Virus record (IMG/VR): IMGVR_UViG_3300009285_001776 | Coordinates: 1-44,807 of that record | From: a virus | DNA length: 44,807 nt | Direction: 5' to 3' (one strand) | Shown: one piece after another, positions 1 through 44,807 of the stretch | Layout: each line of letters starts with the position of its first letter | How positions within the stretch are numbered: position 1 is the first letter of the stretch | Made by a program: the position numbers and the translations under genes | The notes under the pieces: model-generated | Told to the model about the DNA's origin: nothing | Databases searched by the model: none | Seen by the model: only the letters and a program-made list of their open reading frames with translations

Positions 1-105
1 GGGGCCTACGAGTGGGTAAAAGAGTCGGAGTATGGCCGCGTGGAGAATACCGTTGGATTCCACGAGGGCTATCCCGATTCGTACACCGTGGTTGAGGTAC
101 TCTGA
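1..105 (+). CDS. C1 cassette protein, C-terminal fragment
   Basis: An open frame enters from the left edge in frame 1 and ends at TGA 103-105, giving 34 residues ending in VVEVL. It lies directly before the right half of an attC site, so it is the end of a cassette ORF cut off by the window. No R'' box is found between its start and the stop. The left half of its attC therefore lies outside the window, as expected if the ORF runs through attC as in C4, C5 and C8. No function recognised. Confidence 0.5.
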   Translation, partial: GAYEWVKESEYGRVENTVGFHEGYPDSYTVVEVL

Positions 106-111
106 TCTCGG

Positions 112-140
112 CCCGGCAGCTTAGCTCCGGTCCGTTATAC
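112..140 (+). other. attC site of C1, right half only
   Basis: The L' box CAGCTTAGCTCC and the core GTTATAC (134-140) are present. The matching R'' and L'' boxes are not inside the window. The core differs from the GTTGGGC of later sites but is matched exactly by GTATAAC at the end of the next cassette (365-371), which defines C2. Confidence 0.75.
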
Positions 141-160
141 GGTCGGCCTACAGGGAGGCA

Positions 161-370
161 ATGATGATCGAGTATGTGCTTCGGGGTCGGGCAAAGTCTC
201 TGTCCGAGGTTCCCAAGGGGGCCTGCATTGAGACGATCAATGATGTTGAAGTTGTCGCCATGTGCGAGGGGTGCGGCAAGCCCATCTTGGATGGGCAGAA
301 GCGATACGGATGGGCCGACGGGGTTTGGACGTGCGCCAAGTGCGGTGGCCCAGTTGAGGCCGCCGTATAA
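161..370 (+). CDS. C2 cassette: small zinc-ribbon protein
   Basis: A 69-residue protein beginning at one of two tandem ATGs (161 or 164) after GGGAGGCA. It carries two Cys pairs, CEGCG near residue 35 and CAKCG near residue 60, spaced like a small zinc ribbon. The stop TAA lies inside the R'' box GTATAAC, the normal arrangement for an integron cassette ORF. Function unknown; a metal-binding or nucleic-acid-binding role is inference from the Cys spacing only. Confidence 0.72.
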   Translation: MMIEYVLRGRAKSLSEVPKGACIETINDVEVVAMCEGCGKPILDGQKRYGWADGVWTCAKCGGPVEAAV

Positions 371-453
371 CAACTCGCTGGAATTGACGCCGCGGGCGAG
401 CGGGTTGAAGGACGAGTAGATCGGCGGCGCAATTCAGCTCGCATCCGTTAGAC
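365..453 (+). other. attC site of C2 (89 bp)
   Basis: R'' is GTATAAC (365-371) and L'' is AACTCGCTGGAATTGACG. The right side has AATTCAGCTCGC and core GTTAGAC (447-453). L'' and L' differ from the other sites yet still pair with each other. The length equals that of the C3 and C6 sites. Confidence 0.85.
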
Positions 454-476
454 GACGCCATGCAAAGGAGACGAGA

Positions 477-740
477 ATGAGTCCAGTAGCCGAAGTGTTG
501 GCCGAGCGTGCCCGCCAGGATGAGAAATGGGGTGAGCAGAATCACGATGACGCGTGGTGGCTCGCCATCTTGGTCGAGGAGGTGGGCGAGACGGCCCAGG
601 CAATCTTGCAGGCCGTTGAAGAGGGAGGCGACCCCGCACGCGTTCGGAAGGAAGTGGTTCAGTCTTGCGCCGTTAGCTTGGCTTGGCTGCAATGCATGGA
701 CAGGCGCGCCGTCATCACGTCAGAACGCGGCGTCGTCTAA
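477..740 (+). CDS. C3 cassette: MazG-like nucleotide pyrophosphohydrolase
   Basis: An 87-residue protein of the all-alpha NTP pyrophosphohydrolase (MazG-like) type, a family that hydrolyses NTPs to NMP and pyrophosphate. Visible marks are ERARQDEKWGEQNHD (residues 10-24), the metal-binding EEVGE (34-38) and a second helix with RKEVVQ (57-62). The usual final Asp of the ExxE...ExxD pattern appears to be Gln. The RBS is GGAGACGAGA before ATG 477. The stop TAA lies in R'' GTCTAAC. Possible roles are nucleotide-pool cleansing or lowering alarmone levels during infection; the substrate cannot be told from sequence. Confidence 0.85.
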   Translation: MSPVAEVLAERARQDEKWGEQNHDDAWWLAILVEEVGETAQAILQAVEEGGDPARVRKEVVQSCAVSLAWLQCMDRRAVITSERGVV

Positions 741-823
741 CAACTCGCTGAAGCCGACTCTTGTTGGCGACAGCGACACGAATGATGGGGATCGGCGAGC
801 GGCTTAGCTCGCATCCGTTGGGC
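735..823 (+). other. attC site of C3 (89 bp)
   Basis: R'' GTCTAAC (735-741) is the exact reverse complement of the core GTTAGAC that opens this cassette at 447. Complementarity extends outward (GACGACGCC with GGCGTCGTC). L'' is AACTCGCTGAAGCCGAC, L' is GCGGCTTAGCTCGC, and the core is GTTGGGC at 817-823. Confidence 0.9.
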
Positions 824-893
824 GGTCGCCCGTAGCTGGAGGATGAAATGCCCGAATGGGAAGAGGAGTTTGATAAGTGGTATCCAACAGAGC
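817..893 (+). repeat. 77-bp exact repeat, left copy (attC core plus start of C4)
   Basis: Identical over 77 bases to 44731-44807, the last bases of the window. The repeat begins at the G of the core GTTGGGC and runs through the C4 RBS and first 15 codons plus one base of codon 16. Base 816 is C and base 44730 is A, so identity starts exactly at the recombination core. See the findings for what this implies about genome ends and cassette order. Confidence 0.95.
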
Positions 894-1174
894 AGATCAA
901 CCGGGCAAGGTGGGTCTGCAAAGAGTCGTTCATGGCTGGATGGCACGCCTGTGAAGACGCCGCCCAACAACTCGCTGAAACTGACGCTGGCGGCACAGAC
1001 AAGGACGAGTTGATCGCCCTCAAGGTATTGGCAATGCTCGTGACGCGTCGCCTAGTATCTGCCGAGGCGGTCAACCGCGCCTTGGAAGTGCGCGGTTCCC
1101 GGTACTGTATCTTTGACCACGCCGGCATCTGGGACGTGGGGACATTGCCCGCCTCGTCCGCCGGCGCAGCTTAG
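848..1174 (+). CDS. C4 cassette protein: shared N-domain, attC-encoded linker, variable C-domain
   Basis: A 108-residue protein with RBS GGAGGATGAA. Residues 1-37 form a compact Trp-rich segment (FDKWY, SFMAGWHAC) shared in outline with C5 and C8. Residues 38-46 (AAQQLAETD) are encoded by the R''/L'' half of attC. Residues about 50-105 are a separate region rich in Leu/Val/Ala. The stop TAG lies in the L' box (CAGCTTAGC), so the protein ends in AA. The F-x-W...AGW motif resembles short segments common in phage-encoded hypothetical proteins. Function unknown. Confidence 0.65.
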   Translation: MPEWEEEFDKWYPTEQINRARWVCKESFMAGWHACEDAAQQLAETDAGGTDKDELIALKVLAMLVTRRLVSAEAVNRALEVRGSRYCIFDHAGIWDVGTLPASSAGAA

Positions 1175-1190
1175 CTCGCATCCGTTGGGC
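962..1190 (+). other. long attC-like site of C4 (229 bp) with coding centre
   Basis: R'' GCCCAAC (962-968) and L'' AACTCGCTGAAACTGACGC pair with L' GCGCAGCTTAGCTCGC and core GTTGGGC (1184-1190). Pairing continues inward (GCTGGCGG with CCGCCGGC). The central part, about 170 bases, is open reading frame. Typical attC sites are about 57-141 bp, so this is unusually long. Confidence 0.7.
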
Positions 1191-1214
1191 GGTCGCCACT
1201 AACTGGAGGTTGAA

Positions 1215-1598
1215 ATGCCTGATGTCTGGAAGGACTGCAAAAAGTGGATTGCTTCGCAAGGCGCCAGTCTCGCATACATGAGTCTCGTCGGAGGGTTTTA
1301 CGCCGGTTGGCTTGCCAGGGATGGCGCCGTCGAACAACTCGCTGAAGCCGACCCGACCGGGCGGCAAGAGGAATCCGGGCTTGAGGAGGCCGCTCGATTG
1401 GCGGGGAGTCTTTACCGCGTCGTGAAGTCGATGGACAACGATGGCGTCGGCCACATAAGCCTTGCCTTCACAGAGAAGGATGGCACGCGTGGCGCCGTTA
1501 TAGTCCTGGCCCCCGACGCCGGAAACGAGGAAATCCTCGCCGCCGTGGGTGCGATCTGTGACAAGCAGGCCGAAGCCGCCGCCGGTCGTGCGGCTTAG
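1215..1598 (+). CDS. C5 cassette protein: shared N-domain with a longer unknown C-domain
   Basis: A 127-residue protein after RBS GGAGGTTGAA. Residues 1-37 match the C4/C8 layout (DCKKWIA, GGFYAGWLAR). The linker AVEQLAEAD at 38-46 is attC-encoded. Residues 50-125 contain an alternating hydrophobic stretch (GHISLAFTEKDG, GAVIVLAPDAG) that looks like a small alpha/beta domain, then an Ala-rich tail ending GRAA at the L' stop. No family recognised. Confidence 0.62.
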   Translation: MPDVWKDCKKWIASQGASLAYMSLVGGFYAGWLARDGAVEQLAEADPTGRQEESGLEEAARLAGSLYRVVKSMDNDGVGHISLAFTEKDGTRGAVIVLAPDAGNEEILAAVGAICDKQAEAAAGRAA

Positions 1599-1614
1599 CT
1601 CGCATCCGTTGGGC
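1329..1614 (+). other. long attC-like site of C5 (286 bp), degenerate R'' box
   Basis: L'' AACTCGCTGAAGCCGACCC (from 1334) and L' GTGCGGCTTAGCTCGC with core GTTGGGC (1608-1614) are clear. The R'' box reads GTCGAAC instead of GCCCAAC. The middle is coding. The mismatched R'' suggests weak or lost recombination activity. Confidence 0.6.
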
Positions 1615-1634
1615 AGCGCCAGAAGGAGATGAAG

Positions 1635-1904
1635 ATGTCGTTCTCAGACAAGGCTTGCAGATGGATCACCGACCGAGTTCAAGAGGGTCGCGGCGCAGTC
1701 GTATTCTCTCTTGAGGAGAGCGCCGGTCTCATTGGCGTTTGGATTGGTGAGGAGGAATCCGCACCCGCGCTTGGGTGCGGGGAAGATGCGGTGTCTGCGA
1801 TTATGGACGCCATGCGCCGCGGCGCGTCGCTGCCTAACAACTCGCTGAAGCCGACTCGGCCCAAGCGGGGTAACATGCCGAAGAAGGTTAGCCGAGCAGC
1901 TTAG
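1635..1904 (+). CDS. C6 cassette protein, reads through attC
   Basis: An 89-residue product counted from ATG 1635, chosen because it sits six bases after GGAG; ATG 1629 overlaps that RBS. Residues 1-63 are the cassette protein proper (TDRVQEGRGAVVFSLEE, GLIGVWIGEEESAPALG), perhaps a small beta-rich fold. From LPNNSLKPTRP on, the sequence is translated attC. The stop is the TAG in L'. A function is not recognised, and the attC-encoded tail may carry none. Confidence 0.65.
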   Translation: MSFSDKACRWITDRVQEGRGAVVFSLEESAGLIGVWIGEEESAPALGCGEDAVSAIMDAMRRGASLPNNSLKPTRPKRGNMPKKVSRAA

Positions 1905-1920
1905 CTCGCATCCGTTGGGC
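1832..1920 (+). other. attC site of C6 (89 bp)
   Basis: R'' GCCTAAC pairs (with one G-U) to the GTTGGGC at 1608. Pairing extends specifically for this cassette, since CGCTGCC matches the GGGCAGCG after that core. L'' is AACTCGCTGAAGCCGACTCGGC, and L' is GCCGAGCAGCTTAGCTCGC. The new core is GTTGGGC at 1914-1920. It is one of the best-formed attC sites here. Confidence 0.9.
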
Positions 1921-1944
1921 GGTCGCCTGAAGTTGGAGGATGAA

Positions 1945-2157
1945 ATGCCCGTATCGTATCTGTCTTTGGAGAAGATGGCCGCATGGGTGGCCTTGGACCC
2001 TGAGCGTAATCGTGCCAGCAAGGAGTGGTGGGATTGGGCGAGGTCCGCCTACAGTCTCGCCACCCAACATGCGCATGAAGCTGACGCCGCCGCGGTGGAC
2101 CCAAGCCGCAAGCGCGACTGTTCTTGTGGGGACACGCCTTGCACGTGTCCGTTCTAA
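1945..2157 (+). CDS. C7 cassette protein with Cys-rich tail
   Basis: A 70-residue protein after RBS GGAGGATGAA, starting MPVSYLSLEKM. It has a helical Trp-rich centre (ASKEWWDWARSAY), then ATQHAHEADA, encoded by the attC left boxes, and a short tail with four Cys (CSCGDTPCTCPF). The stop TAA falls within the long attC loop. Another frame is open through the same site and gives NMRMKLTPP-type attC translation, but it lacks an RBS. Function unknown. Confidence 0.6.
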   Translation: MPVSYLSLEKMAAWVALDPERNRASKEWWDWARSAYSLATQHAHEADAAAVDPSRKRDCSCGDTPCTCPF

Positions 2158-2187
2158 GCGGCGCAGCTTATGCGCGGTCCGTTGGGC
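2062..2187 (+). other. diverged attC site of C7 (126 bp)
   Basis: R'' is ACCCAAC (2062-2068), L'' ATGCGCATGAAGCTGACGCC, L' GGCGCAGCTTATGCGCGG and core GTTGGGC (2181-2187). Both inner boxes differ from those of the neighbouring sites yet remain complementary (GCGCAT with ATGCGC). It is therefore a genuine alternative lineage of attC rather than decay. Confidence 0.8.
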
Positions 2188-2210
2188 GGTCGCCCGAAGG
2201 AGATGAGGAA

Positions 2211-2447
2211 ATGCCCGAATGGAACGATCCGTTCATCGAGGTTTGGCCCTACGACGAATCTCCGCAAAGGGTCCTCGCCCTGATGTGGTATTCAATGGGA
2301 TGGCGCGCCTCACGTCACGCCGCCCAACAACTCACTGAAGCTGACGGGGCAAGGCCGCCGCACTCAAACATGCAGTGCGCCTGTGGGCATCCGTTCGGAA
2401 TTAACACCGCGGGTAACTGCATGAAATGCGGCCGCCCCGCGGCTTAG
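2211..2447 (+). CDS. C8 cassette protein: shared N-domain plus small zinc ribbon
   Basis: A 78-residue protein. Its start MPEW and the segment MWYSMGWRASR match the C4/C5 N-terminal layout. The linker AAQQLTEAD (37-45) is attC-encoded. The C-terminal part has CACGHPFGINTAGNCMKCG, a C-x-C...C-x2-C zinc-ribbon pattern. It ends in RPAA at the L' stop. The RBS is GGAGATGAGGAA. It looks like the N-domain of C4/C5 joined through the attC left half to a different small domain. Confidence 0.65.
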   Translation: MPEWNDPFIEVWPYDESPQRVLALMWYSMGWRASRHAAQQLTEADGARPPHSNMQCACGHPFGINTAGNCMKCGRPAA

Positions 2448-2463
2448 CTCGCATCCGTTGGGC
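2322..2463 (+). other. attC site of C8 (142 bp) with coding centre; last attC of the array
   Basis: R'' GCCCAAC (2322-2328), L'' AACTCACTGAAGCTGACGG, L' GCGGCTTAGCTCGC and core GTTGGGC (2457-2463). The central region encodes the zinc-ribbon part of C8. No further attC is found to the right. Confidence 0.78.
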
Positions 2464-2511
2464 GGTCGCCTTGACTTGACGTAGAATCCAGAGGCATGAG
2501 AGGAGACGGAG

Positions 2512-2823
2512 ATGGAGAATGGGCAAGTGCATCAATTGTACTTCGTGACGGCATCCGAGGCAATGACAAATCTCGCCGGCGCCATCCTGGAGATGGGCGT
2601 TACAGCTTCTGCCTACTCTCGGGCCATCAAGGAGTTTACTGATGCCGCCGGGCTCACACTTGAACAAGCAAACGCCGACCTACGCGCTTTCATTCGGACT
2701 CTTCCTTGGAGAGAGCGGATGAAACTCTGGCCTCACCGCCGATTCCCACGCGTCTTCCCGATGCCTTTGCTCGTTCTTAGCCACGCCGATCAATGGCTGA
2801 CAGATAGGATGAATGGCGCCTAG
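2512..2823 (+). CDS. hypothetical protein after the last attC; backbone gene or cassette without attC
   Basis: A 103-residue protein with RBS GAGGAGACGGAG. The first half is helical (TASEAMTNLAGAILEMG, TLEQANADLRAFI); the second half is basic (WRERMKLWPHRRFPR). No family recognised. It follows a core with the same TTGGGCGGTCGCC lead as four cassettes but has no attC of its own. It is either a cassette whose attC was lost or the sequence that originally followed the insertion site. Its stop codon overlaps the stop of the minus-strand gene at 2820, so the two transcripts converge with no spacer. Confidence 0.6.
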   Translation: MENGQVHQLYFVTASEAMTNLAGAILEMGVTASAYSRAIKEFTDAAGLTLEQANADLRAFIRTLPWRERMKLWPHRRFPRVFPMPLLVLSHADQWLTDRMNGA

Positions 2824-3814: not shown

Positions 3815-4051
3815 TCACCTCTTCACCGAGTAGGCAAAGCCGAACTTGCCCCCGAGCGATGCGTGCCTGCGCACCATCCTCCCCGCCTTCACTTCTTCCC
3901 TCAACGCCCGCTCCGCAACCGATCTGCTAAGGCCCCGGAGTTGGGCGAAGCCGTCCACGGTGATCTCGTCCGGGCGGATGGGATCGCGGAGTTCGATGGC
4001 ATTCAGGAAGGCCTCAAGTTCGGCGCCTATGGCATCTACGTCAGGAGACAT
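3815..4051 (-). CDS. small winged-helix-like protein
   Basis: 78 residues from ATG 4051, preceded by GGAGGTGGTCG, with a short overlap into the upstream metallophosphoesterase gene. ITVDGFAQLRGLSRSVAERALREEV (residues 30-54) looks like a helix-turn-helix, followed by a wing-like segment (GRMVRRHASLGGKFGFAY). DNA binding is inferred from that pattern alone. Longer frames upstream start inside the previous gene and lack an RBS. Confidence 0.6.
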   Translation of the reverse strand: MSPDVDAIGAELEAFLNAIELRDPIRPDEITVDGFAQLRGLSRSVAERALREEVKAGRMVRRHASLGGKFGFAYSVKR

Positions 4052-4997
4052 CGACCACCTCCTTCGTCGTGAAGTCAAACGTTCGGATGAACTCGTGGGG
4101 GGTTACCCTCCCGTCAACCACCTCGAAGGCCAGCATTCCTATCGTCGCCTTGGGCGGGGACTTGGCAACCTTCCTAGCGTAGTCGTCGATGAAGCAGTAG
4201 GATGGGCAGATGGCCGCGTGTGTTCGCCACGTCTTGCCCCTGGCCCGCCTCGTCACAACCTCGGAGACGTACTGGTGATAGTGGCCGCGGAGCAGAACAT
4301 CCGGCGGATCATGCCCCTCGACCAACTCGTCGTCCATGATGGACTGCGTGTAGAGTCGGAGAATGTTCCCTCGCAGCCAATAGCGCGAGCCCGGAGGACT
4401 TCCGTGATGTGCGAGGTCAAAGTTGACTCCCCCGATAGTGGCCTTCCAGTGATACGGCACATCCACCTTGATCCCGGCCGTGCGCACGCGCGCGGCGACA
4501 ATCAGGGCGGCCGAGCCCTCTTCGAGTTCGTGGTATCCGGTACCTTTGGCAAACACCATCCGCTGAAGGTTGGGGACGGCCATCCAGGGGGCGAGGTTGG
4601 CAAAGGCGATCTCAAACTGGTCTGCCGCTCGCGTCGACACAAGCTCCCGCGCCTTTCCGTTCCCGCCCTGCGCCATGTCACCGTGATGGAGCAGGATGAT
4701 CGGATCCCCGGCGGCCAGTTCAACTACGCGGTCCTTGTCCCCAACGTACAGGGGCCATAGGGCTTGCTGGCTTGGTCCGGGCATCGGACGCCAGGGCACA
4801 AGGTTGCCGTTCTCGTCCTCGTCGTACAGGACCGTCTCTGGGTTGAGTAGACCGAGCTTGTGATTGGCGTGAGTGTCTCCGATGTCTGCGACGATCACGC
4901 GCCGCGCAGTTGTCTCCGGATGCAGTCCGGCCAGCATCTCGCCTACTGTGGGCATTCGACCTCCGAAGGGGGAAACGGGGGCCATGACCAACTTCAT
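4041..4997 (-). CDS. calcineurin-like metallophosphoesterase
   Basis: 318 residues with the ordered metal motifs of the calcineurin-like phosphoesterase fold: DIGDTH (38-43), HHGD (104-107), GTGYHE (152-157, in place of GNH), LAHHG (195-199) and GHYH (238-241). Enzymes of this fold cleave phosphomonoesters or diesters with two metal ions; similar genes are frequent in siphovirus late regions. The start could be ATG 4997, which lies inside a strong palindrome, or ATG 4955. The palindrome would then cover the first start codon. Confidence 0.85.
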   Translation of the reverse strand: MKLVMAPVSPFGGRMPTVGEMLAGLHPETTARRVIVADIGDTHANHKLGLLNPETVLYDEDENGNLVPWRPMPGPSQQALWPLYVGDKDRVVELAAGDPIILLHHGDMAQGGNGKARELVSTRAADQFEIAFANLAPWMAVPNLQRMVFAKGTGYHELEEGSAALIVAARVRTAGIKVDVPYHWKATIGGVNFDLAHHGSPPGSRYWLRGNILRLYTQSIMDDELVEGHDPPDVLLRGHYHQYVSEVVTRRARGKTWRTHAAICPSYCFIDDYARKVAKSPPKATIGMLAFEVVDGRVTPHEFIRTFDFTTKEVVDVS

Positions 4998-19406: not shown

Positions 19407-20339
19407 TTAGCCAGACGCTACGGCCTGCTTCACCAGGTAGCCGGCATCGGGCGAGGTGACCACGGCGTCCCATGACATGCGTGCTTCCACGACGTCCTGA
19501 TGCTCCTGCTCTTCCCGGTAGCGCGAGACCTCGCGGTTCTTGTACTGGAAGACGTAACCGGCCGAGGGCGCATCCAGAGCCGCCGTCGGGGTCACCCACC
19601 CCAGCCACAAGTGATTGCCCGCGATCAGGCTGACGCTGGAGGTTGCACCCTCCTGCGCCGAGTCATAGATCGCTCCGGCAACCAGGAACTTCTGCACGCC
19701 GATCAGATTGGCGACCGTCGCCTGATCCGCTCGGGCCGGCCGATCCGGGCCCGCCCCGTACTTCACGCGGTCCACGATGTCCGGGTGATTGCGGATGTAG
19801 CGCCAGAGGCCGCGACCACAGACGGCGATGTTCGGGTCGCGTCCGATGGTCTTGGCGACCGTGTACATCCCGGTCTCGATGTCGGTCAGGATGTCCGAGG
19901 AGTCCGAGGACCACAGGGTTCCGGGGGTAGCTGAGCTCGACCAGCCCGCGCCGAACACCAAGCCGAGCACGTCGCTCTCCACCGACATCAGGATCTTGTC
20001 GGTGACGAACTCCGTCGCCGAGATCATCGGGCGCAGGGGCTCATCAGCCATGTCCTGCACCTCATCCGGCACACCCTTCGCGATTGCCTTTTCAAGGCAG
20101 ACGTAGGGCGAGGTGCTGACGGTGTAGTCCGCGCGGACGGCACGAGTGCCGGGGGCACGGGCGGCGGCCTCGTTGCGCAGCCAATCTGCGGCAGCGAAGA
20201 CCCAATACTTGTTCGTCGCCTTGGCAACGCCGACCATCGGGAAGATCTGGTCCGCGATGTACGAGCCGTTGCGGTAGGCGATGCTGACGTTGCTCAGGCC
20301 AACGTCGATGTGTGACTGTCGGTCAGTAGGTGAAGACAT
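19407..20339 (-). CDS. major capsid protein
   Basis: 310 residues. The opening HIDVGLSNVSIAYRNGSYIADQIFPMV is of a type recurrent in a major capsid family (L-x-N-V-S-I-A-Y, then ADQIFP). AGWSSSATPGTLWSS and TIGRDPNIAVCGRGLWRYI are other marks. It follows the decoration-type and protease/scaffold genes, in standard head gene order. No long scaffolding delta domain is seen at its N-terminus. Confidence 0.85.
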   Translation of the reverse strand: MSSPTDRQSHIDVGLSNVSIAYRNGSYIADQIFPMVGVAKATNKYWVFAAADWLRNEAAARAPGTRAVRADYTVSTSPYVCLEKAIAKGVPDEVQDMADEPLRPMISATEFVTDKILMSVESDVLGLVFGAGWSSSATPGTLWSSDSSDILTDIETGMYTVAKTIGRDPNIAVCGRGLWRYIRNHPDIVDRVKYGAGPDRPARADQATVANLIGVQKFLVAGAIYDSAQEGATSSVSLIAGNHLWLGWVTPTAALDAPSAGYVFQYKNREVSRYREEQEHQDVVEARMSWDAVVTSPDAGYLVKQAVASG

Positions 20340-20348
20340 CGCCGCCTC

Positions 20349-20774
20349 CTAGCTCGTTCCGAGCTGCAGGCCGCAGCTCGAGATGCCGTAGATGAACACT
20401 TCGCCGATGCAGGATGCGTCCGTGGTCGTCTTGGACACATCGAAGTAGCGGGCAAAGGCGAAATTGGTGACAGTGTCCTCAAGGGCCTCAAGGAAACCGT
20501 CTGACGCGGCCTTGAGGAACCGGCCGTTCTTCAGGTCGCAGGTAGTCACGCGACACTTGGCCTTGGTCGGTCCGAGGATCACGACCTCCGCCGCCTGTCC
20601 CGCGCTCGGGTCGTTCACCAGGATGCCGAGCGGAGTGGGATTGCAGGCGCTTGCCGTCGCCTTCACATTCCCGGCAGTCGAGGCTGGGGAAACCAGCATC
20701 CACTGCTTGGCCGTCAGATCGGCATCGGCGGTGAACGGCATGGGCTTGATTCCAATATCAGCGTAGCGAGCCAT
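20349..20774 (-). CDS. head decoration / DUF2190-like protein candidate
   Basis: 141 residues: MARYADIGIKPMPFTADADLTAKQWMLV, then NPTPLGILVNDPSAGQAAEVVILG. The G-I-L-x-N-x-P-x-x-G-x-x-A pattern is the typical core of small capsid decoration proteins. It lies just before the capsid gene. Such proteins stabilise the shell by binding at capsomer junctions. Confidence 0.75.
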   Translation of the reverse strand: MARYADIGIKPMPFTADADLTAKQWMLVSPASTAGNVKATASACNPTPLGILVNDPSAGQAAEVVILGPTKAKCRVTTCDLKNGRFLKAASDGFLEALEDTVTNFAFARYFDVSKTTTDASCIGEVFIYGISSCGLQLGTS

Positions 20775-20786
20775 TCATCACCTCCG

Positions 20787-21953
20787 TCACGCCAACTCGG
20801 GGTGCTGCTTGCTGGCAAGGGCCAGGGCATCCGAGTAGGTCATCTTGTCGTTCTTCACGAGGTCCTGCGCGATGTTGTGCAGGGTCTTCCCCTCGGTCGT
20901 ACCATCCTTGCCCTTCTCAGTAAGGATGGTCTTGGCCGCAGCGTCGGCGGCGGTCAGGATGTTCTTGACCCACGTCGCCACTTCCGGCTTGTCGGTCTCG
21001 AGCTCGGCCATCGCATTGGCGTACTCGTCAGGCTTCAACGACAGCGCCTTGAATGCCTCGCCTTCGGTCTTGAGCGCGGCCTTGCGGACGGCCAGCTTGT
21101 CAGTCTTGATGTCGGCCTCGAGCTTGTCGGCCCGCGCCTTCTCCGCGGTCAAGAGGTCGGTCTGTTCCTTGATCTTGGCGTCGAACTCTTCCTGCTTCAT
21201 TTCCACCTCCAGCTCTTCGGCCGGTTTCTTCTCGGGTTCAACAATGGGTTCGTCCGTAGCCACCTCCTTCAGTCCAAGCAGTTGGCGCAAATTGGCACGC
21301 AACGACTCGAGGAACGTCTTATCCATATCCTGCTCCTTCGCAGAGAACAGCGCCACATGCTGATGCCCGAAGAACGGGGTAGGCGTGAGCGCCAAGCCGA
21401 CAAGCACGTTGTCGTGTTCGTTCCCGGTTTCCGGGTCCTGGTAGCGGGCACCATCGTTGAGCGTCCATACCACCTCGGCGCTCACGCCGTCATACCCGTC
21501 CTCGCTGACGGCCTTCTCGCCCTTCGGCAGTAGGTCGTAGTCTGTTGCGTACAGACCCGGACCCTTCAGACCATCGGCGATGTACGCCACGTCCTTGATG
21601 TTCCCGACCTTGCCCTTGTCGTCCTTGTGGTCCAGGTTGATCCCCACGCGGAACCGAGGCAGGCCGGACTTGAAGTTGCGCACCATCTCTTGGAGACGGC
21701 CCTCTGTAACGTCGAGCACGCGTCCGCCGCGGAACCATCGGCCTTGAGGCAGGAGACGAATGGGACCAGTCAGGCTCTGCGCGCCGAAGTCGTCGAATGC
21801 AACCTTCTCCGAGTGCATCGTCGGCTCGTTCGCGTGGAGCGCGGCCATCTGCTTCTTGGCCTTCTCCTCTGAATCGTGAGAGCCGACAACCTTGCCGTCG
21901 TCGTCCTTCACCACCTCGTACTTGTCGCCGCTATGCTTGATGTGCCAGGGCAT
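20787..21953 (-). CDS. prohead protease / scaffold (Mu I-like)
   Basis: 388 residues from ATG 21953 with GGAGACGCG upstream. The N-terminal part is a short domain (MPWHIKHSGDKYEVVKDDDG), then a protease-like part (FRVGINLDHKDDKGKVG, DGYDGVSAEVVW, VLVGLALTPTPFFG) resembling Mu I-like proteases, with the catalytic Ser probably in VSAE. A long charged coiled region follows (KIKEQTDLLTAEKARADKLEADI), which fits a fused scaffold. Cleaves and shapes the prohead during assembly. Confidence 0.75.
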   Translation of the reverse strand: MPWHIKHSGDKYEVVKDDDGKVVGSHDSEEKAKKQMAALHANEPTMHSEKVAFDDFGAQSLTGPIRLLPQGRWFRGGRVLDVTEGRLQEMVRNFKSGLPRFRVGINLDHKDDKGKVGNIKDVAYIADGLKGPGLYATDYDLLPKGEKAVSEDGYDGVSAEVVWTLNDGARYQDPETGNEHDNVLVGLALTPTPFFGHQHVALFSAKEQDMDKTFLESLRANLRQLLGLKEVATDEPIVEPEKKPAEELEVEMKQEEFDAKIKEQTDLLTAEKARADKLEADIKTDKLAVRKAALKTEGEAFKALSLKPDEYANAMAELETDKPEVATWVKNILTAADAAAKTILTEKGKDGTTEGKTLHNIAQDLVKNDKMTYSDALALASKQHPELA

Positions 21954-21974
21954 CGCGTCTCCGGGAAATGAGAA

Positions 21975-22029
21975 CCGCCGACGGAATCCCGCCGGCGGCA
22001 TACGAGTGTCAGTGGGGACCGATGTCCCC
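21975..22029 (-). promoter_or_regulatory. two stem-loops between portal and protease genes
   Basis: CCGCCG (21975-21980) pairs with CGGCGG (21993-21998). GGGGAC-CGAT-GTCCCC (22014-22029) is a second six-base-pair stem. On the minus strand the first is followed by TTCTCATTTCC, moderately T-rich. They lie in the gap between the portal stop and the ATG 21953. A weak terminator or processing site is possible. Confidence 0.45.
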
Positions 22030-22065
22030 CGCCTGTCTAACCTTACCACACTCCACAATAGGGCG

Positions 22066-24288
22066 CTACGGTCTGCCCCACTCCCCCGACGCATCCTGAA
22101 CCTCCAGGCTGCACCGGCAGTTGCCGTTGCACTGAACCTCCCCAGGAAGGCGGTTGTTCGTCACGCGCATCAGATCGTCCATGCTCTCATACTCCCCGGC
22201 GAACTCGGGGCAGTCGTCGCAGTGCTGCGCCTGCTCATCCAAGACCCAGGCCACGGCGCCTCCACCCTCCAGTTCCGTCTGCTTCGCCGCCTCACCCGCC
22301 CCGATCTGGATGGCGGTCCATGCCGCACCCGCGTACTGCTCTGCGCGCGACCCCAGTGCAGCCATGTAGCCAATCAGCCCCAATGCCCCAGCCGCCATTA
22401 CGTCCTCGTCGCGCAGGGCACTCTCCAGCCTGCTTTTGGCGGCCGGGATGAACGACGTCGCCAGATAGTCATCGTTCAGCTGCACCCTCCGGGCGATCTC
22501 GGCCAGGTACTCGGGAGATGGCGGTCTGTCACCTAGCCCGAGGTTGGCGCCCCTCACGATAGCCATCCGGCCGGCTGCAGCCAGGGCAGAGGCGAGCACG
22601 GCCAGCTCGTCAGCTATGATCTCGGCCTGCTCCTCTTCGTCGGCCTCGGCCAACTCCTCCGCCAGGTCCTTCAGCCAATCGTTGTAGATCAGCGTGATTT
22701 GGACCTGGTACTTGTTGGTCTCTTTCTCCCATGTGCGGCGCGAGCGCGGTCCACGAAATCGGGACGCCGCGAAGGTTTCGTCTTCGGGCGTCTTACCTCC
22801 TTCCGCCACATCCAGCTTCGCATCCGGGTCATCGCCTTGCGGCTTGCCGAACACGATGGGTTGAGGAGCCGGCCTGGCCGTTGCAGGGTCTGCTTCGGGC
22901 AACTTCAGCATCTCACGCAGCACCCGTTCAACGCCGTCGTCGGGGGTAATGGTTCTAGACCCAACCGCGTCAGCGATGGCCGTGATGATCTTCGACACGT
23001 CCTGCTGCTCGACCGGGGCGAACTGGATCTCGGGGTACTGGGTGATCCCCGTGAAAGCCCCGGCGTTCAGCTTGAACAGCCTGTCCACCGCGAACCGATT
23101 GAACGTCTCGGCGATGTTGTCCAGCCACCCACCGACCGCTTGCGAGAAGAAGTCCGTAGTCACCGTCGCCAGAGCTTGAGTCCCTCTCTCCGTCAGGCCG
23201 AAGAAGATGAACTGCGCCAGCAGCACCTGGGCCATCTGCTGGTTGTAGCGGTTGATGACCTGGTCGAAGTCCACCATGCCTCTGCCGGTAGGTGTAACCA
23301 GCTCGAACAGCGCCCCCATCCCGTCCGCCGTCATCTTGGGGTAGGGAATGACGATGCCCATCTGGTCGTCGGTTCGGATGTTCCTGACGATCTCCTGTGC
23401 CTTCGTGAAGTCGCTGTTGGCGCCCTCCAGCTTCGTGCCCTTCCCGAGGTACATGGTGGGAATGCCGCCGCCCGTTCTCTCGGCGACGATGCCCTCCAAC
23501 TCGGCAAAGTTCTTGCTGAAGTACCAGGGCTGATACGCGCCTCTCAAGGCGGATCGGCCTTGTGGATTGTTCTTCATCCCGTTCGTCCGGTAGAGGATCA
23601 TCTTCTCGATCGGGATGAACACCGACTGCCCGCCATTGGGAGGCGTCTGGTTCAAGCCCTGAATGCCCCCCGAGTCATCGAACATCCACTCCCTGCCCGA
23701 GGTCAAGGTGTCAGGAGAGCGGTAGCCGAACTTGCGCCACCCAATGCGTCCATCATCATGCTTGCTGGACGGCTCCCTCTCTGGTCCAAGCCGACGCTTG
23801 TACACGATCTCGAACGGGGCGAAGCCGTACCATGCCATCGAGATGGCCTGCCCTGTGTGTTCTGACCACGAGTGGCTCATGTCATGGATGCATGTGTCGA
23901 GGAAGTCGGCGGCTTCGATGTCCGCAGCTTCCTCAGACGCGGGCTCGACGTGGACAGTTGCAGACCTCACCAGCATCTCGACCGCGAACGTGGCGGCAGA
24001 CACGACCGGATGGTCGAGCATCTTCCGCACCGTCTTGACCAGACGAGGGAGGCTGTTCCAGTCCTGAACATAGTCCTCGGAGATGGCGCCGGCGAAGCGG
24101 TTTAGCCCAGTCACCCCCATCTCGCCGTAGGTCTTGCCCTTCGTGACCGCAAGCGTTTCGGTCTTGAGTGCCCGGCTCACCGTGGCCGTTGACACATGCA
24201 GGGCCTTAGCGATCTCGGCCCTCCCCTTCCCCTCGGCCGCCAGCGCATGCACCTTGTCGTAGTTCGTGGTCCGCTTACGTCCTGCCAT
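22066..24288 (-). CDS. portal protein with N-terminal HTH and C-terminal minor-head-like region
   Basis: 740 residues in three parts. Residues 8-40 (AAEGKGRAEIAKALHVST) form a helix-turn-helix. Residues about 70-470 look like a Mu gp29/DUF935-type portal (HPVVSAATFAVEMLVRSA, ISMAWYGFAPFEIVYKRR, VINRYNQQMAQVLLAQFI). Residues about 560-740 are helical and end with CDDCPEF and CNGNCRCS, the Cys pattern seen near the end of some minor-head (Mu F/SPP1 gp7-like) proteins. Portals form the dodecameric DNA channel. The fusion of all three is unusual. Confidence 0.8.
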   Translation of the reverse strand: MAGRKRTTNYDKVHALAAEGKGRAEIAKALHVSTATVSRALKTETLAVTKGKTYGEMGVTGLNRFAGAISEDYVQDWNSLPRLVKTVRKMLDHPVVSAATFAVEMLVRSATVHVEPASEEAADIEAADFLDTCIHDMSHSWSEHTGQAISMAWYGFAPFEIVYKRRLGPEREPSSKHDDGRIGWRKFGYRSPDTLTSGREWMFDDSGGIQGLNQTPPNGGQSVFIPIEKMILYRTNGMKNNPQGRSALRGAYQPWYFSKNFAELEGIVAERTGGGIPTMYLGKGTKLEGANSDFTKAQEIVRNIRTDDQMGIVIPYPKMTADGMGALFELVTPTGRGMVDFDQVINRYNQQMAQVLLAQFIFFGLTERGTQALATVTTDFFSQAVGGWLDNIAETFNRFAVDRLFKLNAGAFTGITQYPEIQFAPVEQQDVSKIITAIADAVGSRTITPDDGVERVLREMLKLPEADPATARPAPQPIVFGKPQGDDPDAKLDVAEGGKTPEDETFAASRFRGPRSRRTWEKETNKYQVQITLIYNDWLKDLAEELAEADEEEQAEIIADELAVLASALAAAGRMAIVRGANLGLGDRPPSPEYLAEIARRVQLNDDYLATSFIPAAKSRLESALRDEDVMAAGALGLIGYMAALGSRAEQYAGAAWTAIQIGAGEAAKQTELEGGGAVAWVLDEQAQHCDDCPEFAGEYESMDDLMRVTNNRLPGEVQCNGNCRCSLEVQDASGEWGRP

Positions 24289-24568
24289 TCGCCACCTCCT
24301 TCAGAAGTGCTACCTGGTCGTCGATCATGTCGCCGGCCATGTTGCCTAGATCCCCGATGGTGTTCGTCAATTCAGCCAGAGTGAGAAGGCTCAACTGGCC
24401 CGCCGCTGCTTGCTTGGCCGCCTCATGCACAACGGCCTTAGCCTTGTCCGCCAGAATGAGTGCTGCAGACGAGCGCGTCCGCAATGTGTTGACTGCCAGT
24501 TCAATGTTCGGAGCCCGCCTCCGCCCCAGCGTGAACCCAATCAGCAGCCCAACAATCAGCCAGCCCAT
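24275..24568 (-). CDS. small membrane-anchored helical protein
   Basis: 97 residues, ATG overlapping the terminase stop (TGATG). The N-terminal helix MGWLIVGLLIGFTLG could anchor it in the membrane; the rest is helical (KAKAVVHEAAKQAAAGQ, GDMIDDQVALLKEVANG). Between terminase and portal; no family recognised. Confidence 0.55.
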   Translation of the reverse strand: MGWLIVGLLIGFTLGRRRAPNIELAVNTLRTRSSAALILADKAKAVVHEAAKQAAAGQLSLLTLAELTNTIGDLGNMAGDMIDDQVALLKEVANGRT

Positions 24569-26091
24569 CAGCCCCTCCTGAAGCGGCTCTGCCCAGACGG
24601 ACCCCAGCCGCGATCTCCCCCCTTGGACTCGTCGCTCATGGTCGGCTCTCTCCACCTGCTCTGTTGCGTCAGGTTGGCAATTGGGACGTTGGCCCCTCCG
24701 CCAATCAGCGCCATGACCAGCGCGTCGCCACAATTCGTTGACCTTCCGATGCGTTCTCGAATGTCGTCCTTGCTCTCGATCTGGATGCCCTGGGGGGTGA
24801 TCTTCCAGCGCGGAGCAACGAGGTCGCCTTTCAGTTCCTGGTCGGGAGGCAGGCACAGGTTCAATCCGAACGCCGGGTCCAGCGCCTCCCGCATGCTCCA
24901 CCACAACTCCGCTCTCATGTTCTTGAACCGCAGGTTGCCGCCTCGACCGGACCATCCACCGCTGGACTCTGCGAAGTTGACCGCCTTCGCGTCTACACCA
25001 AGCCCTTTGAGGTGGTCGTACACGCTACCCCCTACGCCGATCACGTCAACATGGATGGGGACCTGATAGCCGATCTCCCGTGTCAGGTGCGCCACCACAG
25101 ACGGACCATCGGGCGTGTCCTTCCCCTTGACCTTGACGGGAAGGCCGAACCATCTACCGACGCGCGTGATGGCTACCGTCTTGTCGTCCCCGCCTCTTGC
25201 CACGTCCACGCCGACGCATGTTGCCGTGCTTCCCTCCGGCGCATCCGGCGTCCACCGCGCCATCGCCGCCTCGATCCATGCAGCGGGGATGACCTGCCAC
25301 GGGTCAGTGCCGAGGCCAATGGAGAAGTCGCCGTACAGGAGTTGGCTTCGCAATGGCTCGGGCAGCATCTGAAGCTGCTCGATGTAGCCCGTCTCGGCGT
25401 ACACAGGATTGTCCATCACAGACGCGGGGATGAAGGTTCTCGACTTCGGGGTGATGACCTCGTCCTTGTACTGGAACACGCCTGGGCCAACTTCCTTCTC
25501 CTCCCCGTCGATCATGGCGTACCACCTGAGCTCGCCGGGCTTCGCAGGATTGGGGTGCTGACTGTCCAGCCATGCCGCCCAACGTCTAACCACCCACTCC
25601 CCCTCAGGAGTAGACGGGGGGTTGCCAGTTGCCACCGTCCTCACCCTCTGCCCCGGTGTTGGCGTTCTCAGCCATGCGTTCAAGAACACGTACTGACTCT
25701 CGAGGAAGTCGGGCAGTTCATCGAACGCCTTCAGGTCGTGAGCCCGCCCCTTGTAGTTCTGCTTGTCGGTCTCGCGATGGACGGCTCCGAACTCCAGCAT
25801 CCTATCCCCTGGCAGGTCGCGCCAGATGTGCATGGTCTCGTTGAACCGCCCCCTCTGTCCGATCATCTCCACCGACGAGGAGATGAGCTCCCTGAGTTGC
25901 GGAAACTCGCGACGGTAGATGATGCTGCGCCGGTGCGCGGTGAGGGCAAGCCCGAGCAGAAGCCACGACTTGCCGCCTCCGGCTTGTCCGCCGAAGAACA
26001 GCTCGTCTGCCTCGGAGTGGTATGCAGCCTCTTGCGGCCGGCCGACGAATGGCGTCCAGAGTGGCGTGGCGTCAGTCTGCGCCCGCGCCAT
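24568..26091 (-). CDS. terL: terminase large subunit
   Basis: 507 residues from ATG 26091; an upstream TTG at 26166 would add 25 residues but has no good RBS. ATPase part: Walker A GGQAGGGKS (34-42), Walker B AFDEL (122-126) and ATGNPPST (155-161). Nuclease part: GVDVARGGDDKT (294-305), with the acidic residues that bind metal in the RNase H-like fold, and CGDALVMAL near the end. It drives DNA packaging through the portal. Confidence 0.93.
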   Translation of the reverse strand: MARAQTDATPLWTPFVGRPQEAAYHSEADELFFGGQAGGGKSWLLLGLALTAHRRSIIYRREFPQLRELISSSVEMIGQRGRFNETMHIWRDLPGDRMLEFGAVHRETDKQNYKGRAHDLKAFDELPDFLESQYVFLNAWLRTPTPGQRVRTVATGNPPSTPEGEWVVRRWAAWLDSQHPNPAKPGELRWYAMIDGEEKEVGPGVFQYKDEVITPKSRTFIPASVMDNPVYAETGYIEQLQMLPEPLRSQLLYGDFSIGLGTDPWQVIPAAWIEAAMARWTPDAPEGSTATCVGVDVARGGDDKTVAITRVGRWFGLPVKVKGKDTPDGPSVVAHLTREIGYQVPIHVDVIGVGGSVYDHLKGLGVDAKAVNFAESSGGWSGRGGNLRFKNMRAELWWSMREALDPAFGLNLCLPPDQELKGDLVAPRWKITPQGIQIESKDDIRERIGRSTNCGDALVMALIGGGANVPIANLTQQSRWREPTMSDESKGGDRGWGPSGQSRFRRG

Positions 26092-26545
26092 CCTCTTCAG
26101 CTTCTCCGTCTTGGCTGACAGGTACTCCTGCTCCGGCAAAAAGCTCGACAGCGAGGTCTCTTCCAAGCTCCGCCTCCAGAATCTCGTAGGTCAGCGCGCC
26201 GTCCTTCACGAGGGCAATCAGATCGTCCCGCCACGACTTGATGACCGTTGGCAGCTTGCCCTCCGTCCGGTCCATCACCTCTTTCAGGATCGGCCCGGTC
26301 GGCTCGGACATGAGCACCATCCACAACCTGAGTGCAACCATGCCCTCGATCGGGATTTCGTTGCCACCCGCAGCAAGCTCCTTCGACCACAGCTTGCATA
26401 GCTTCGACGCCTCGACCGGCGTCATGGCGCCCCACTTCCGCAGCCAGCCCGTGACGCGGTTCGGCCCCTTGCCCTTTGTGTTGCGACGCGGGTCATAGCC
26501 TCTCTCGAAGAACTTCAGGTTCTCTGCCTTGCCAGGACCGCCCAT
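26072..26545 (-). CDS. putative terminase small subunit (DUF5681-like)
   Basis: 157 residues from ATG 26545; a longer TTG form is less likely. GPNRVTGWLRKWGAMTPVEAS, then LRLWMVLMSEPTGPILKEVMDRTEGKLP (about residues 75-102) is the style of DUF5681/terS-like proteins that end in D-R-T-E-G-K-P. It immediately precedes terL in transcription. Small terminases recognise the packaging site on phage DNA. Confidence 0.65.
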   Translation of the reverse strand: MGGPGKAENLKFFERGYDPRRNTKGKGPNRVTGWLRKWGAMTPVEASKLCKLWSKELAAGGNEIPIEGMVALRLWMVLMSEPTGPILKEVMDRTEGKLPTVIKSWRDDLIALVKDGALTYEILEAELGRDLAVELFAGAGVPVSQDGEAEEDGAGAD

Positions 26546-26635: not shown

Positions 26636-26845
26636 TTACGCAATGCCATGTACCTCCGCGAACGGCCCCCATTCTTGCGCCGCTCGATTGGCTTCGGCAG
26701 GCGTGCGTTCATATCCCTGGATGAACGACCGTTCTGTGTCGCCCACGCACGTTATCTCAATCCAGTCGAAGCGAACCCAGTCAAGGCGCGTGATTTTCGA
26801 CAATGTCACGACCGATAGACGAACATCACACTGGACGGCTGGCAT
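26636..26845 (-). CDS. small hypothetical protein
   Basis: 69 residues from ATG 26845 with GGAGACATTCT before it; overlaps the end of the cytidylyltransferase gene. VRFDWIEITCVGDTERSFIQGYERT looks like an exposed beta-hairpin, and RTPAEANRAAQEWG a helix. It is the last gene of the sugar operon. No function recognised. Confidence 0.6.
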   Translation of the reverse strand: MPAVQCDVRLSVVTLSKITRLDWVRFDWIEITCVGDTERSFIQGYERTPAEANRAAQEWGPFAEVHGIA

Positions 26846-28687: not shown

Positions 28688-29396
28688 ACACTAGCAACCT
28701 TTGCCTAGATTCGCCATTGTCGTCAGGATAGAAGTCCTCTGAGACACATCCCCACCTGGAGGAGACGAAACTAGTCAGGTCGTCCATGTCTACCGCGGCG
28801 TGTACCCCTGGATGTTCTGCTCCGGTTTCCCGGATGAGGTTGACGAAGCACACGTCCGCCAGCTTTCCCAGCCTCTCAAGTGTCTGCTTCTGGACATCTG
28901 GACTCAGGTGCTCGATCACATCGAAGCAGACGGCGAAGTTCTGGTGCGGGATCTCCGTTCCGGGCTCGTCGATGATGTAGATGGGAAGATCGAGTTTCAG
29001 AGCTCTCAGCCTGTACGAGAGCCACTGCATCGACGCCCCATAGATGTCGGCGAAGGAGACGCGGTAGCCGAGGAAGTGCATTGCTAGGCCAAACTGCCCC
29101 CCTCCGGCCCCGTAGTCGAGGATCTTCACCCCGTACATATCAGGGGTTGCGCCGAGAATCTTGGCGATGTAGGGGCGATGAATGCCCGCCGTGCTCAGGG
29201 CGATGTTCTGGTAGGCGAAGATCAGCGTCCGCCTGGTCCACTCCTCGTCCGTCCCCTTGAACTGCGCCCGATCCTCTACGGCCTTCGTGTCATCGGCGGC
29301 GCACCAGGCTAGGTTGAAGTTGGGACCGGTGTAGTCGGCCAGTTCGTAGTAGGCCGGGTGCATCCACCCGCCGCGCTCTTTGGGGATCTGGATCAC
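28668..29396 (-). CDS. SAM-dependent methyltransferase
   Basis: 242 residues from GTG 29396, coupled to the preceding TGA. The SAM-binding motif KILDYGAGGGQFGLAMHFL lies near residue 85, and FAVCFDVIEHLSP near 140 supplies motif III. CVSEDFYPDDNGESRQRLLV closes the fold. It differs from the neighbouring methyltransferase in having no Cys pair, so the two act at different positions or substrates. Longer upstream reading frame lies inside the ATP-grasp gene. Confidence 0.8.
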   Translation of the reverse strand: MIQIPKERGGWMHPAYYELADYTGPNFNLAWCAADDTKAVEDRAQFKGTDEEWTRRTLIFAYQNIALSTAGIHRPYIAKILGATPDMYGVKILDYGAGGGQFGLAMHFLGYRVSFADIYGASMQWLSYRLRALKLDLPIYIIDEPGTEIPHQNFAVCFDVIEHLSPDVQKQTLERLGKLADVCFVNLIRETGAEHPGVHAAVDMDDLTSFVSSRWGCVSEDFYPDDNGESRQRLLVYGNVTA

Positions 29397-42570: not shown

Positions 42571-42952
42571 CATGGAACTTGACATGAACGGACCGGTTTG
42601 GGGCGCCATCTCCTGGCGAAAGGCGACCCGGTACGACTCGGCGGAGGACCAGGTAGCTGGCTTCAAGGTGATGCCGACATTCTCCCGGCCGCAGTTCCGC
42701 CAGGACGTTCAGCGGTACATCGACCTTCAGAGCAACCCGAACGACTGGATCGAGCCCTACCGTTTCGAGATCGTCCCGTTCGATAAGCAGTCCGAGGCCG
42801 TCGAGGCGAAGCACGCAGATCTGACCCACCTGGAGGAAATGCGCAAGCCGCATCCGGGACAGGCGGAGATCGACGCCGAAGCCGCCGCGGTTCTGACCGG
42901 ACGACCGCTGCCCGGGCCGGTGCGCGTTGGAACATGGGGAGGAGACAAATGA
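42560..42952 (+). CDS. hypothetical protein of the recombination operon
   Basis: 130 residues, overlapping the first gene by a few codons; ATG 42572 is another possible start. PVWGAISWRKATRYDSAEDQ, then FRQDVQRYIDLQSNPNDWIE, and a helical acidic end. It precedes the RecT-like gene with an ATGA overlap, so the two are probably translated together. No family recognised. Confidence 0.55.
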   Translation: MDFDMELDMNGPVWGAISWRKATRYDSAEDQVAGFKVMPTFSRPQFRQDVQRYIDLQSNPNDWIEPYRFEIVPFDKQSEAVEAKHADLTHLEEMRKPHPGQAEIDAEAAAVLTGRPLPGPVRVGTWGGDK

Positions 42953-43992
42953 CCGACAAGGCTTTGACCATCACAGAGAAAGAGAACCGCATCGCCCCCT
43001 GGGGAAACCGAGAGGAGTTGCGAGAGATCGCCCGGCGCGTGCAGCTCATGTCGCCGGGCGGTAAGAAGCTGGACGAGCATCAGGCACTTGCTCTTGCACA
43101 GGGCGCAGTAGCTCACGGCCTCGATCCGTTCAACGGGGAAATCTGGTTCATCCCCGGCGCCGGCCTCATGGCCGGGATCAAGGGGCTACGCAAGGCGGCC
43201 CGCCTCCAGCTCGAAGGAAACTACTGGACGGAGTTCGAGGAACTGAGGGACCCTGACCAGCGCGCGTTGCTTGCCATTCCCGATGGCGCGCTCGCCTTCC
43301 GCTGCATCATCCGGGACAGCGAAACGCTCCGCGCCTACACCGAGGCATGGGCGGCAATGAGCGATAAGCACATCCCGGCCGACATGATCCCGAAGATCCT
43401 CGGGGTTCGGCCCTACGTCGAAGGGGTTGGCTACTTCAAGCGGGGCGAGAGCTCGAAGATGGAGCCGGTCCAGGTTGCGATGAAGCGAGCCGAGGCCGAC
43501 GCGCTCAAGCGGCGCTTTGACCTACCCTTTGCGGTTCCGTCCGAGCCAGGCGACACAGCAGTCGAGGGCGATTGGATCGAGGCAATCGCGGAGCCGGCAA
43601 CGAGTTCGCCGGCCGCACCGACTGCGCCTTCAACGGATCGGCCCTACCCGCCCGAAGTCTTGCGGACCAAGATCCTCGACCGCACGATGGCGAACGAGGG
43701 CAAGGCGTGTTCTGCCGAACAGCGCGGCCTTGCGATGGGCATGCTCAACGAATGCTTCGCCGGCCAGAAGGACTCCGAGAAGCTGCGCCATTCGGTGCTC
43801 AAGTTCCTCTGCGAAGTCACGAGCGGGAATGACCCCCAGCCGGCGCAGGTGCTTGCCCTCCTGGATTGGCTCAAGCCGACGAAGGACTCCGGGGGGGCGT
43901 ACAAGCCCGATGCAGACGCGGCCCGAGAGGCGCAGGGGATCATCCGCGCCGCGCTAGCCGAGGCCGGGCAGAAGACGTTGTTTGGCGAGTGA
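42949..43992 (+). CDS. RecT/Bet-like single-strand annealing protein candidate
   Basis: 347 residues from ATG 42949, after GGGAGGAGACAA. ALALAQGAVAHGLDPFNGEI, then WFIPGAGLMAGIKGLRKAAR resembles the core of RecT/Redbeta-like proteins (G-L-D-P-F...I-x-G-x-x-x-x-A-x-R). The C-terminal part is a linker and a helical domain (ALAMGMLNECF style in AEQRGLAMGMLNECFAG). Phage annealing proteins pair single-stranded DNA in recombination-dependent replication. Identification is by motif, not full alignment. Confidence 0.6.
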   Translation: MTDKALTITEKENRIAPWGNREELREIARRVQLMSPGGKKLDEHQALALAQGAVAHGLDPFNGEIWFIPGAGLMAGIKGLRKAARLQLEGNYWTEFEELRDPDQRALLAIPDGALAFRCIIRDSETLRAYTEAWAAMSDKHIPADMIPKILGVRPYVEGVGYFKRGESSKMEPVQVAMKRAEADALKRRFDLPFAVPSEPGDTAVEGDWIEAIAEPATSSPAAPTAPSTDRPYPPEVLRTKILDRTMANEGKACSAEQRGLAMGMLNECFAGQKDSEKLRHSVLKFLCEVTSGNDPQPAQVLALLDWLKPTKDSGGAYKPDADAAREAQGIIRAALAEAGQKTLFGE

Positions 43993-44413: not shown

Positions 44414-44730
44414 CCGATCCGCTGCCCCGTCCGTGACCACCGGCATAACTGCGCGAGGTCCAAACTGAACGAATGGGGACCTTGGCGGCGGGGCGGCGGA
44501 TACAGGAAGGCGAAATGACGGTTATGGCAGGTTCTCGAAGCACCACAGAAGGCACGCAGGGGCGCCTGGGAGGCCTTGAGACGGGCGCGGGACGGGAAAC
44601 CGTGTCCTTTCCGGCTCAAGTAATTGGTGGCCATTTCGGGGGGTAATTAATGTGCCACCCCCTCCGCAGGGCCGTGGACAGGAATTGAACGCGAGCCGCG
44701 CAGATTTACACGGAGGCCGTCGAATCACTA
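44414..44730 (+). other. 317-base gene-poor stretch ending in an attI-like junction
   Basis: Between the last operon gene and the 77-base repeat. It holds one weak small ORF (44473-44646) and a stem GGGGGT/ACCCCC (44639-44644 with 44657-44662) around TAATTAAT-like bases. At the end, CACTA comes directly before GTTGGGC. No attC L' box (CTTAGCTCG) precedes this core, so the junction is not an attC. It would fit an attI or secondary target site for cassette insertion. Confidence 0.55.
44473..44646 (+). CDS. small ORF of uncertain status
   Basis: 57 residues from ATG 44473, or 43 from ATG 44515, which follows AGGAAGGCGAA. Gly/Thr/Arg rich (TVMAGSRSTTEGTQGRLGG), with no recognisable motif. Included because of the RBS; it may be chance. 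Confidence 0.2.
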   Translation: MGTLAAGRRIQEGEMTVMAGSRSTTEGTQGRLGGLETGAGRETVSFPAQVIGGHFGG

Positions 44731-44807
44731 GTTGGGCGGTCGCCCGTAGCTGGAGGATGAAATGCCCGAATGGGAAGAGGAGTTTGATAAGTGGTATCCA
44801 ACAGAGC
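44731..44807 (+). repeat. 77-bp exact repeat, right copy (cassette core and start of C4)
   Basis: Identical to 817-893. It begins at the G of GTTGGGC and includes the C4 RBS and first codons; the window ends inside it. It joins the right end of the phage genome directly to cassette C4, giving a circle of 43,914 bases if bases 1-816 are an alternative path. Confidence 0.95.

Follow-up and report, generated by a model that had tools for sequence, protein, structure and literature searches.

The first 2463 nucleotides of the window, by which we mean the whole 44,807-nt stretch of viral DNA analysed here (IMG/VR record IMGVR_UViG_3300009285_001776), form a genuine integron-type gene cassette array, and the array belongs to a tailed phage. 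Seven complete cassettes and one truncated at the left end lie in a single orientation (Table 1); the preliminary description had counted eight ORF modules with attC-like sites, and the array itself proved real while the number of complete cassettes is seven. Although devoid of an integrase of their own, phages of this kind appear to exchange small genes with the integron system of bacteria. The reading that we favour, with a probability of roughly 0.8, is that the phage lineage maintains a fixed attI-like site at which cassettes are exchanged by an integron integrase that the host supplies in trans.

Table 1 Features of the cassette array, the attI-like island and the phage genes discussed in the text.
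Feature	Position	Strand	Description
Truncated left cassette C0	1..133	+	End of ORF, L' arm GCAGCTTAGCTCCGGTCC
Cassette 1	134..446	+	ORF 161-370, stop TAA in R''; attC 365-453
Cassette 2	447..816	+	ORF 477-740, phage family phrog_2831, stop TAA in R''; attC 735-823
Cassette 3	817..1183	+	ORF 848-1174 through attC 962-1190, stop TAG in L'
Cassette 4	1184..1607	+	ORF 1215-1598 through attC 1329-1614 (R'' GTCGAAC degenerate), stop TAG in L'
Cassette 5	1608..1913	+	ORF 1635-1904 (or from 1629), different phase at R'', stop TAG in L'; attC 1832-1920
Cassette 6	1914..2180	+	ORF 1945-2157, Cys-rich end; attC 2062-2187, own covarying L arms
Cassette 7	2181..2456	+	ORF 2211-2447 through attC 2322-2463, stop TAG in L', Cys-rich end
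Terminal gene	2457..2823	+	Last core site and ORF 2512-2823; no attC behind the ORF
Conserved phage gene beyond the array	4041..4997	-	71% identical in L023
Phage head genes	19407..26166	-	Major head protein 19407-20339, portal 22066-24288, terminase large subunit 24568-26166
Gene upstream of the island	42934..43992	+	Weakly RecT-like (phrog_2780, E 0.06); C-terminal part 90% identical in L023 and L044
attI-like island	44654..44737	+	About 85 bp, immediately upstream of the array; core G at 44731 (GAATCACTA followed by GTTGGGC)
Start of cassette 3 fused directly to the island	44731..44807	+	Exact copy of 817-893

The window contains eight core sites of the form G↓TTRRRY (the arrow follows the recombining G, found at 134, 447, 817, 1184, 1608, 1914, 2181 and 2457) and seven R'' boxes (starting at 365, 735, 962, 1329, 1832, 2062 and 2322). 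In each complete cassette the R'' box at the 3' end pairs with the R' box at the 5' end, the complementarity that defines an integron gene cassette; the exception among the seven is cassette 4, in which the degenerate R'' (GTCGAAC) makes the pairing imperfect. The pairs GTTATAC/GTATAAC and GTTAGAC/GTCTAAC are perfect over 7 of 7 nt, GTTAGACGACG/CGTCGTCTAAC is perfect over 11 nt, GTTGGGCAGCG/CGCTGCCTAAC contains a single G-T wobble, and GTTGGGCGG../..CCGCCCAAC is the pair of most of the remaining cassettes. The co-variation of R'' with R', claimed in the preliminary description, was borne out: when the R' boxes were redistributed randomly among the seven cassettes, the observed level of own-cassette pairing was reached in only 86 of 20000 permutations. 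A structural attC scanner, which scores R''/R' together with L''/L' pairing and was used with a cut-off of ≥38, found six sites on the + strand of the window, every one between 365 and 2463, against one site on the + strand of 20 trimer-shuffled windows and one in 12 other phage loci (379 kb, both strands counted). An independent covariance model built from seven bacterial attC sites ranked three of the array sites at the top of its list for the window, with weak scores (15.3, 13.0 and 12.5 bits; E 0.09-0.66), and was uninformative for the long sites of loci L078, L080 and L081. On folding of the bottom strand, which had been put forward earlier as a check, the site of cassette 6 gave an R stem, a spacer and an L stem with two extrahelical bases (z -3.4), and that of cassette 7 folded similarly (z -2.3). 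These canonical features were clear in cassettes 6 and 7 and less so in cassettes 1, 2 and 5 when integrated, a state in which R' is that of the following cassette. The L arms of cassette 6 (GCGCATGAAGCTG / CAGCTTATGCGC) are unlike those of all other cassettes and covary with each other. With six scanner sites, one further degenerate site and no tyrosine recombinase, the array corresponds to a CALIN (at least two attC sites with no intI nearby) and, as no intI gene was found in the window, not to a complete integron. The long attC sites (175-286 nt) exceed the usual attC sizes; this, the weak scores of the covariance model, the degenerate R'' of cassette 4 and the lack of a clear L box in the island described below weigh against the favoured reading.

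The window cassettes are small genes, most of them with a recognisable ribosome-binding site. Their proteins gave no Pfam match above the cut-off and no PADLOC match, the sole match of the array to INPHARED phage DNA was a chance one of 30 nt, and a six-sequence AlphaFold model was all-helical at middling confidence (mean pLDDT 68.9). Cassettes 3, 4, 6 and 7, together with cassettes A and B of a related phage described below, have a related N-terminal half joined to unrelated C-terminal halves. That family resemblance would suit duplicated small phage genes whose shared 5' and 3' sequences mimic attC, with no integron involved, but we regard this as very improbable: cassettes 1, 2 and 5 stand outside the family, as judged by eye, and nevertheless end in the same type of attC, and neither the R'/R'' coherence and the covarying L arms nor the occurrence of similar attC sites in bacterial metagenome-assembled genomes (MAGs) would be expected of plain duplications. 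The bacterial sites (L072, Planctomycetota; L066, Acidobacteriota; and Bacteroidota) have nearly the same L''/L' arms (AACAAGTCGCTGAAGCCGAC .. CGGCTTAGCTCCCATCCGTT) and are likewise long (163-195 nt). Sites of similar sequence were found in MAG contigs labelled Planctomycetota, Acidobacteriota, Bacteroidota and Desulfobacterales, with no clear host match. Searches with the attC pattern and with the portal protein in 294 genomes of the phylum of L072 returned nothing useful, and the nearest portal and head proteins of isolates, at 30-37% identity, indicated no single host.

The remainder of the window had been taken for a phage genome, and this stands: terminase, portal and major head protein genes (phrog_979, phrog_113, phrog_1005) occur on the one contig along with a tape measure gene, which identifies a tailed phage. 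Between the terminase and the replication genes lies a cluster resembling sugar biosynthesis (26826-35873, - strand) with cytidylyltransferase, methyltransferase, ATP-grasp, TPP enzyme, SDR, Gfo/Idh-type oxidoreductase, aminotransferase and NeuB/PseI-like genes; ATP-grasp and cytidylyltransferase genes are also present in a related phage contig, L004. The acetolactate-synthase-like TPP enzyme of this cluster (30475-31906, - strand) is spread over three ORFs (30475-31014, 30995-31906 and 31372-31860), and the gene therefore looks frame-broken or wrongly sequenced. A replication-initiator-like protein with an HTH domain and a C-terminal DnaA_N-like domain is encoded at 38199-39020 (- strand).

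To find relatives, the R''-L'' arm pattern was searched in IMG/VR, where it occurred in 55 stretches, two of which, L023 and L044 (the same as L080), carry homologues of window genes around an array. In both phages a short array occupies the same place, with homologous phage genes on both sides. Searches with gene 7302-8813, gene 4044-4997, the island and the C-terminus of 42934-43992 recovered only these same two as array-bearing relatives, and three more distant relatives gave no attC matches. A further contig, L011, has distant homologues of the tail genes and breaks off within an array whose attC sites are of the same type and which holds a related cassette. In L023 and L044 an HNH-endonuclease-like ORF and a small HTH-like ORF (by eye) lie between the homologue of 42934-43992 and the island, whereas the window has neither; in L095 a pentapeptide-repeat-like gene with many near-identical 15-nt units (7480-8500) lies downstream of the homologue of 42934-43992. 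One viral record (IMGVR 2834908352_000001; loci L049/L051, genome G014) holds a complete integron integrase (TIGR02249, 489.5 bits) and at least 10 attC sites, and may be a misclassified bacterial integron.

Since L023 and L044 share the locus, the island and the flanking genes with the window, the junction between array and phage is real and conserved, and the linkage asserted in the preliminary description holds. A bacterial array joined to a phage contig by faulty assembly might be suspected from the fact that both window ends fall in the array, where assemblers can err; since independent contigs from other samples (L023, L044) carry syntenic arrays, with the array-phage junctions, the island and homologous genes on either side all found again, this is hardly conceivable and was rejected. 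The order is island, cassette A, cassette B, phage in L023 and island, cassette B, phage in L044. The two sequences agree at every position (100% identity) for 3968 nt upstream and 311 nt downstream (86-99% in longer aligned blocks), and locally they differ by exactly one 315-nt cassette, A, which adjoins the island and is absent from L044. Cassettes thus come and go at the island-proximal end, and the whole-cassette difference supports turnover.

The island itself is 83-88% identical in L023 and L044/L080, where it also lies upstream of the arrays (the alignment spans window positions 44654-44749), and in all three records it presents G↓TTGGGC before the first cassette. It has no clear L box, no promoter or terminator was found beside it, and no tRNA or known RNA was found there or elsewhere in the window. 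The array is also present at the right end of the window (44731-44807): the last 77 bases, beginning at the recombining G of a core, are an exact repeat of 817-893, so the contig closes on itself within the array, and the record is probably near-complete. Cassette 3 is accordingly preceded both by cassette 2 and, at 44731, by phage sequence, which means that the sample holds two forms of the array or that the start of the cassette has been duplicated.

A search for tyrosine recombinases (PF00589, E≤10) gave no match in the window or in the L023, L044 and L011 records, and any integrase must therefore act in trans. The expectation that the array lets the phage pick up and reshuffle small genes thus gains from the L023/L044 difference and has to be amended, as the phage has no integrase of its own. 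According to our proposal, the attI-like insertion site would be kept in the interval that separates gene 42934-43992, read rightward, from the distal end of the late genes, read leftward. Cassettes are arranged at it head to tail in the orientation of that upstream gene. The integron integrase of the infected bacterium would most likely bind the folded bottom strand of attC and cut at G↓TT, excising cassettes or inserting them at the phage site, and members of the lineage would consequently differ by whole cassettes at the site-proximal end. The one-cassette difference is consistent with such recombination. The proposal is plausible because IntI1 was found to recombine attC sites taken from other virulent phages about as frequently as a bacterial control (PMC9892861). 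What the sequences show are the attC sites, the R'/R'' coherence, the shared phage locus, the one-cassette difference and the open frames; that an integrase acts in trans, that the cassettes are expressed and that the phage benefits in any way we infer.

The main rival for the recent turnover, unlikely in our estimation but live, is that an integron-derived array now changes only by homologous recombination between repeated GTTGGGCGGTCGCC cores (and attC arms), perhaps aided by a phage annealing protein, the integrase being no longer involved. Both junctions of the L023/L044 difference fall within a 14-bp identical repeat, the neighbouring gene 42934-43992 is weakly RecT-like, and no integrase gene was found in the phages, all of which fits such a process; however, the cores of cassettes 1 and 2 (GTTATAC, GTTAGAC) share only GTT with their neighbours and yet match their own R'', and both recent differences are island-proximal, as integrase-driven insertion predicts. 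We consider it improbable that the array is a relic, in the sense that illegitimate recombination on a single occasion brought in part of a bacterial integron array which has simply been inherited since. The lack of an integrase, degenerate sites such as that of cassette 4 and a last ORF devoid of attC (possibly a cassette that lost it) would agree with this, but the window and L023 hold different cassettes at the same island, and the locally identical L023 and L044 differ by a whole one. Among known systems the array is close to the sedentary chromosomal integrons of bacteria, with which it shares head-to-tail cassettes, G↓TTRRRY cores and change at the attI-proximal end, and from which it differs in lacking intI, in being phage-borne and in attC loops of up to about 240 nt.

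Beyond the preliminary description, several attC sites proved to be protein-coding throughout. The attC is read through in frame in six cassettes of three phages (cassettes 3, 4 and 7 of the window, A and B of L023, and the L011 cassette). In all six, R'' stands at codon phase 0 (GCC CAA CAA.. or GTC GAA CAA..) and the frame is closed by the TAG within the L' box (GCNGCTTAGC); it stays open for 41-89 codons after R'' in the five cassettes measured and is open in L011 too. With shuffled loops and a probability of 1/3 that the frame is kept, these read-through frames have a combined probability of about 1.6e-6. Cassettes 1 and 2 have the same R'' phase, but a TAA within R'' ends the gene, so that one base (CAA or TAA) decides between stop and read-through: with RYY-TAA the protein would end in R'', and with RYY-CAA it would continue through the hairpin to the TAG of the L' box. 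On this reading the longer read-through peptide would be made. It is conceivable, although we hold it with more doubt than belief, that in this phage lineage the cassette gene is expressed with the recombination hairpin as part of it, and that array exchange, carried out by host integrases at an attI which the phage reserves for the purpose, would thereby shuffle protein halves, combining a common N-terminal half and an attC-encoded linker (AAQQ[LV]AEAD) with unrelated C-terminal halves. In L072 the bacterial site whose R'' is GCCCAAC was seen by eye to contain an in-frame stop in the loop and, unlike the phage sites, is not coding throughout. Nivina et al. (2020) reportedly designed synthetic protein-coding attC sites in which the recombination hairpin is also translated; the sites found here differ in being natural, and translation would continue past R'' for 41-89 codons to a stop within the L' box.

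Phages carrying cassette arrays had been called rare or undescribed in the preliminary description. "Undescribed" does not hold, because phage-borne attC clusters were published in 2023, with recombination assays, and the kind is already known: Qi et al. 2023 (PMC9892861) report integron parts in 21 phages, 17 CALINs among them. As here, those CALINs, in virulent and temperate phages, are attC clusters without an integrase in phage genomes, with unidirectional cassettes in some. The sections of that paper that were consulted mention neither a shared attI-like locus, nor locally identical phages differing by one cassette, nor fully coding attC sites. The titles and abstracts retrieved in literature searches likewise contained no attI-like locus shared by a phage lineage, no such one-cassette difference and no natural attC translated from end to end. 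New here are the conserved attI-like locus, the finding that phages identical around the array can differ by a single cassette, and the natural protein-coding attC sites.

If the favoured reading is true, phages would be regular users of the integron gene pool and not accidental carriers, with a fixed docking site at which the gain and loss of cassettes is visible between phages identical around it. This raises the testable question of whether host integron integrases edit phage genomes during infection. If the attC sites are translated, they would be a natural counterpart of an engineered idea and also a means of varying protein tails through recombination.
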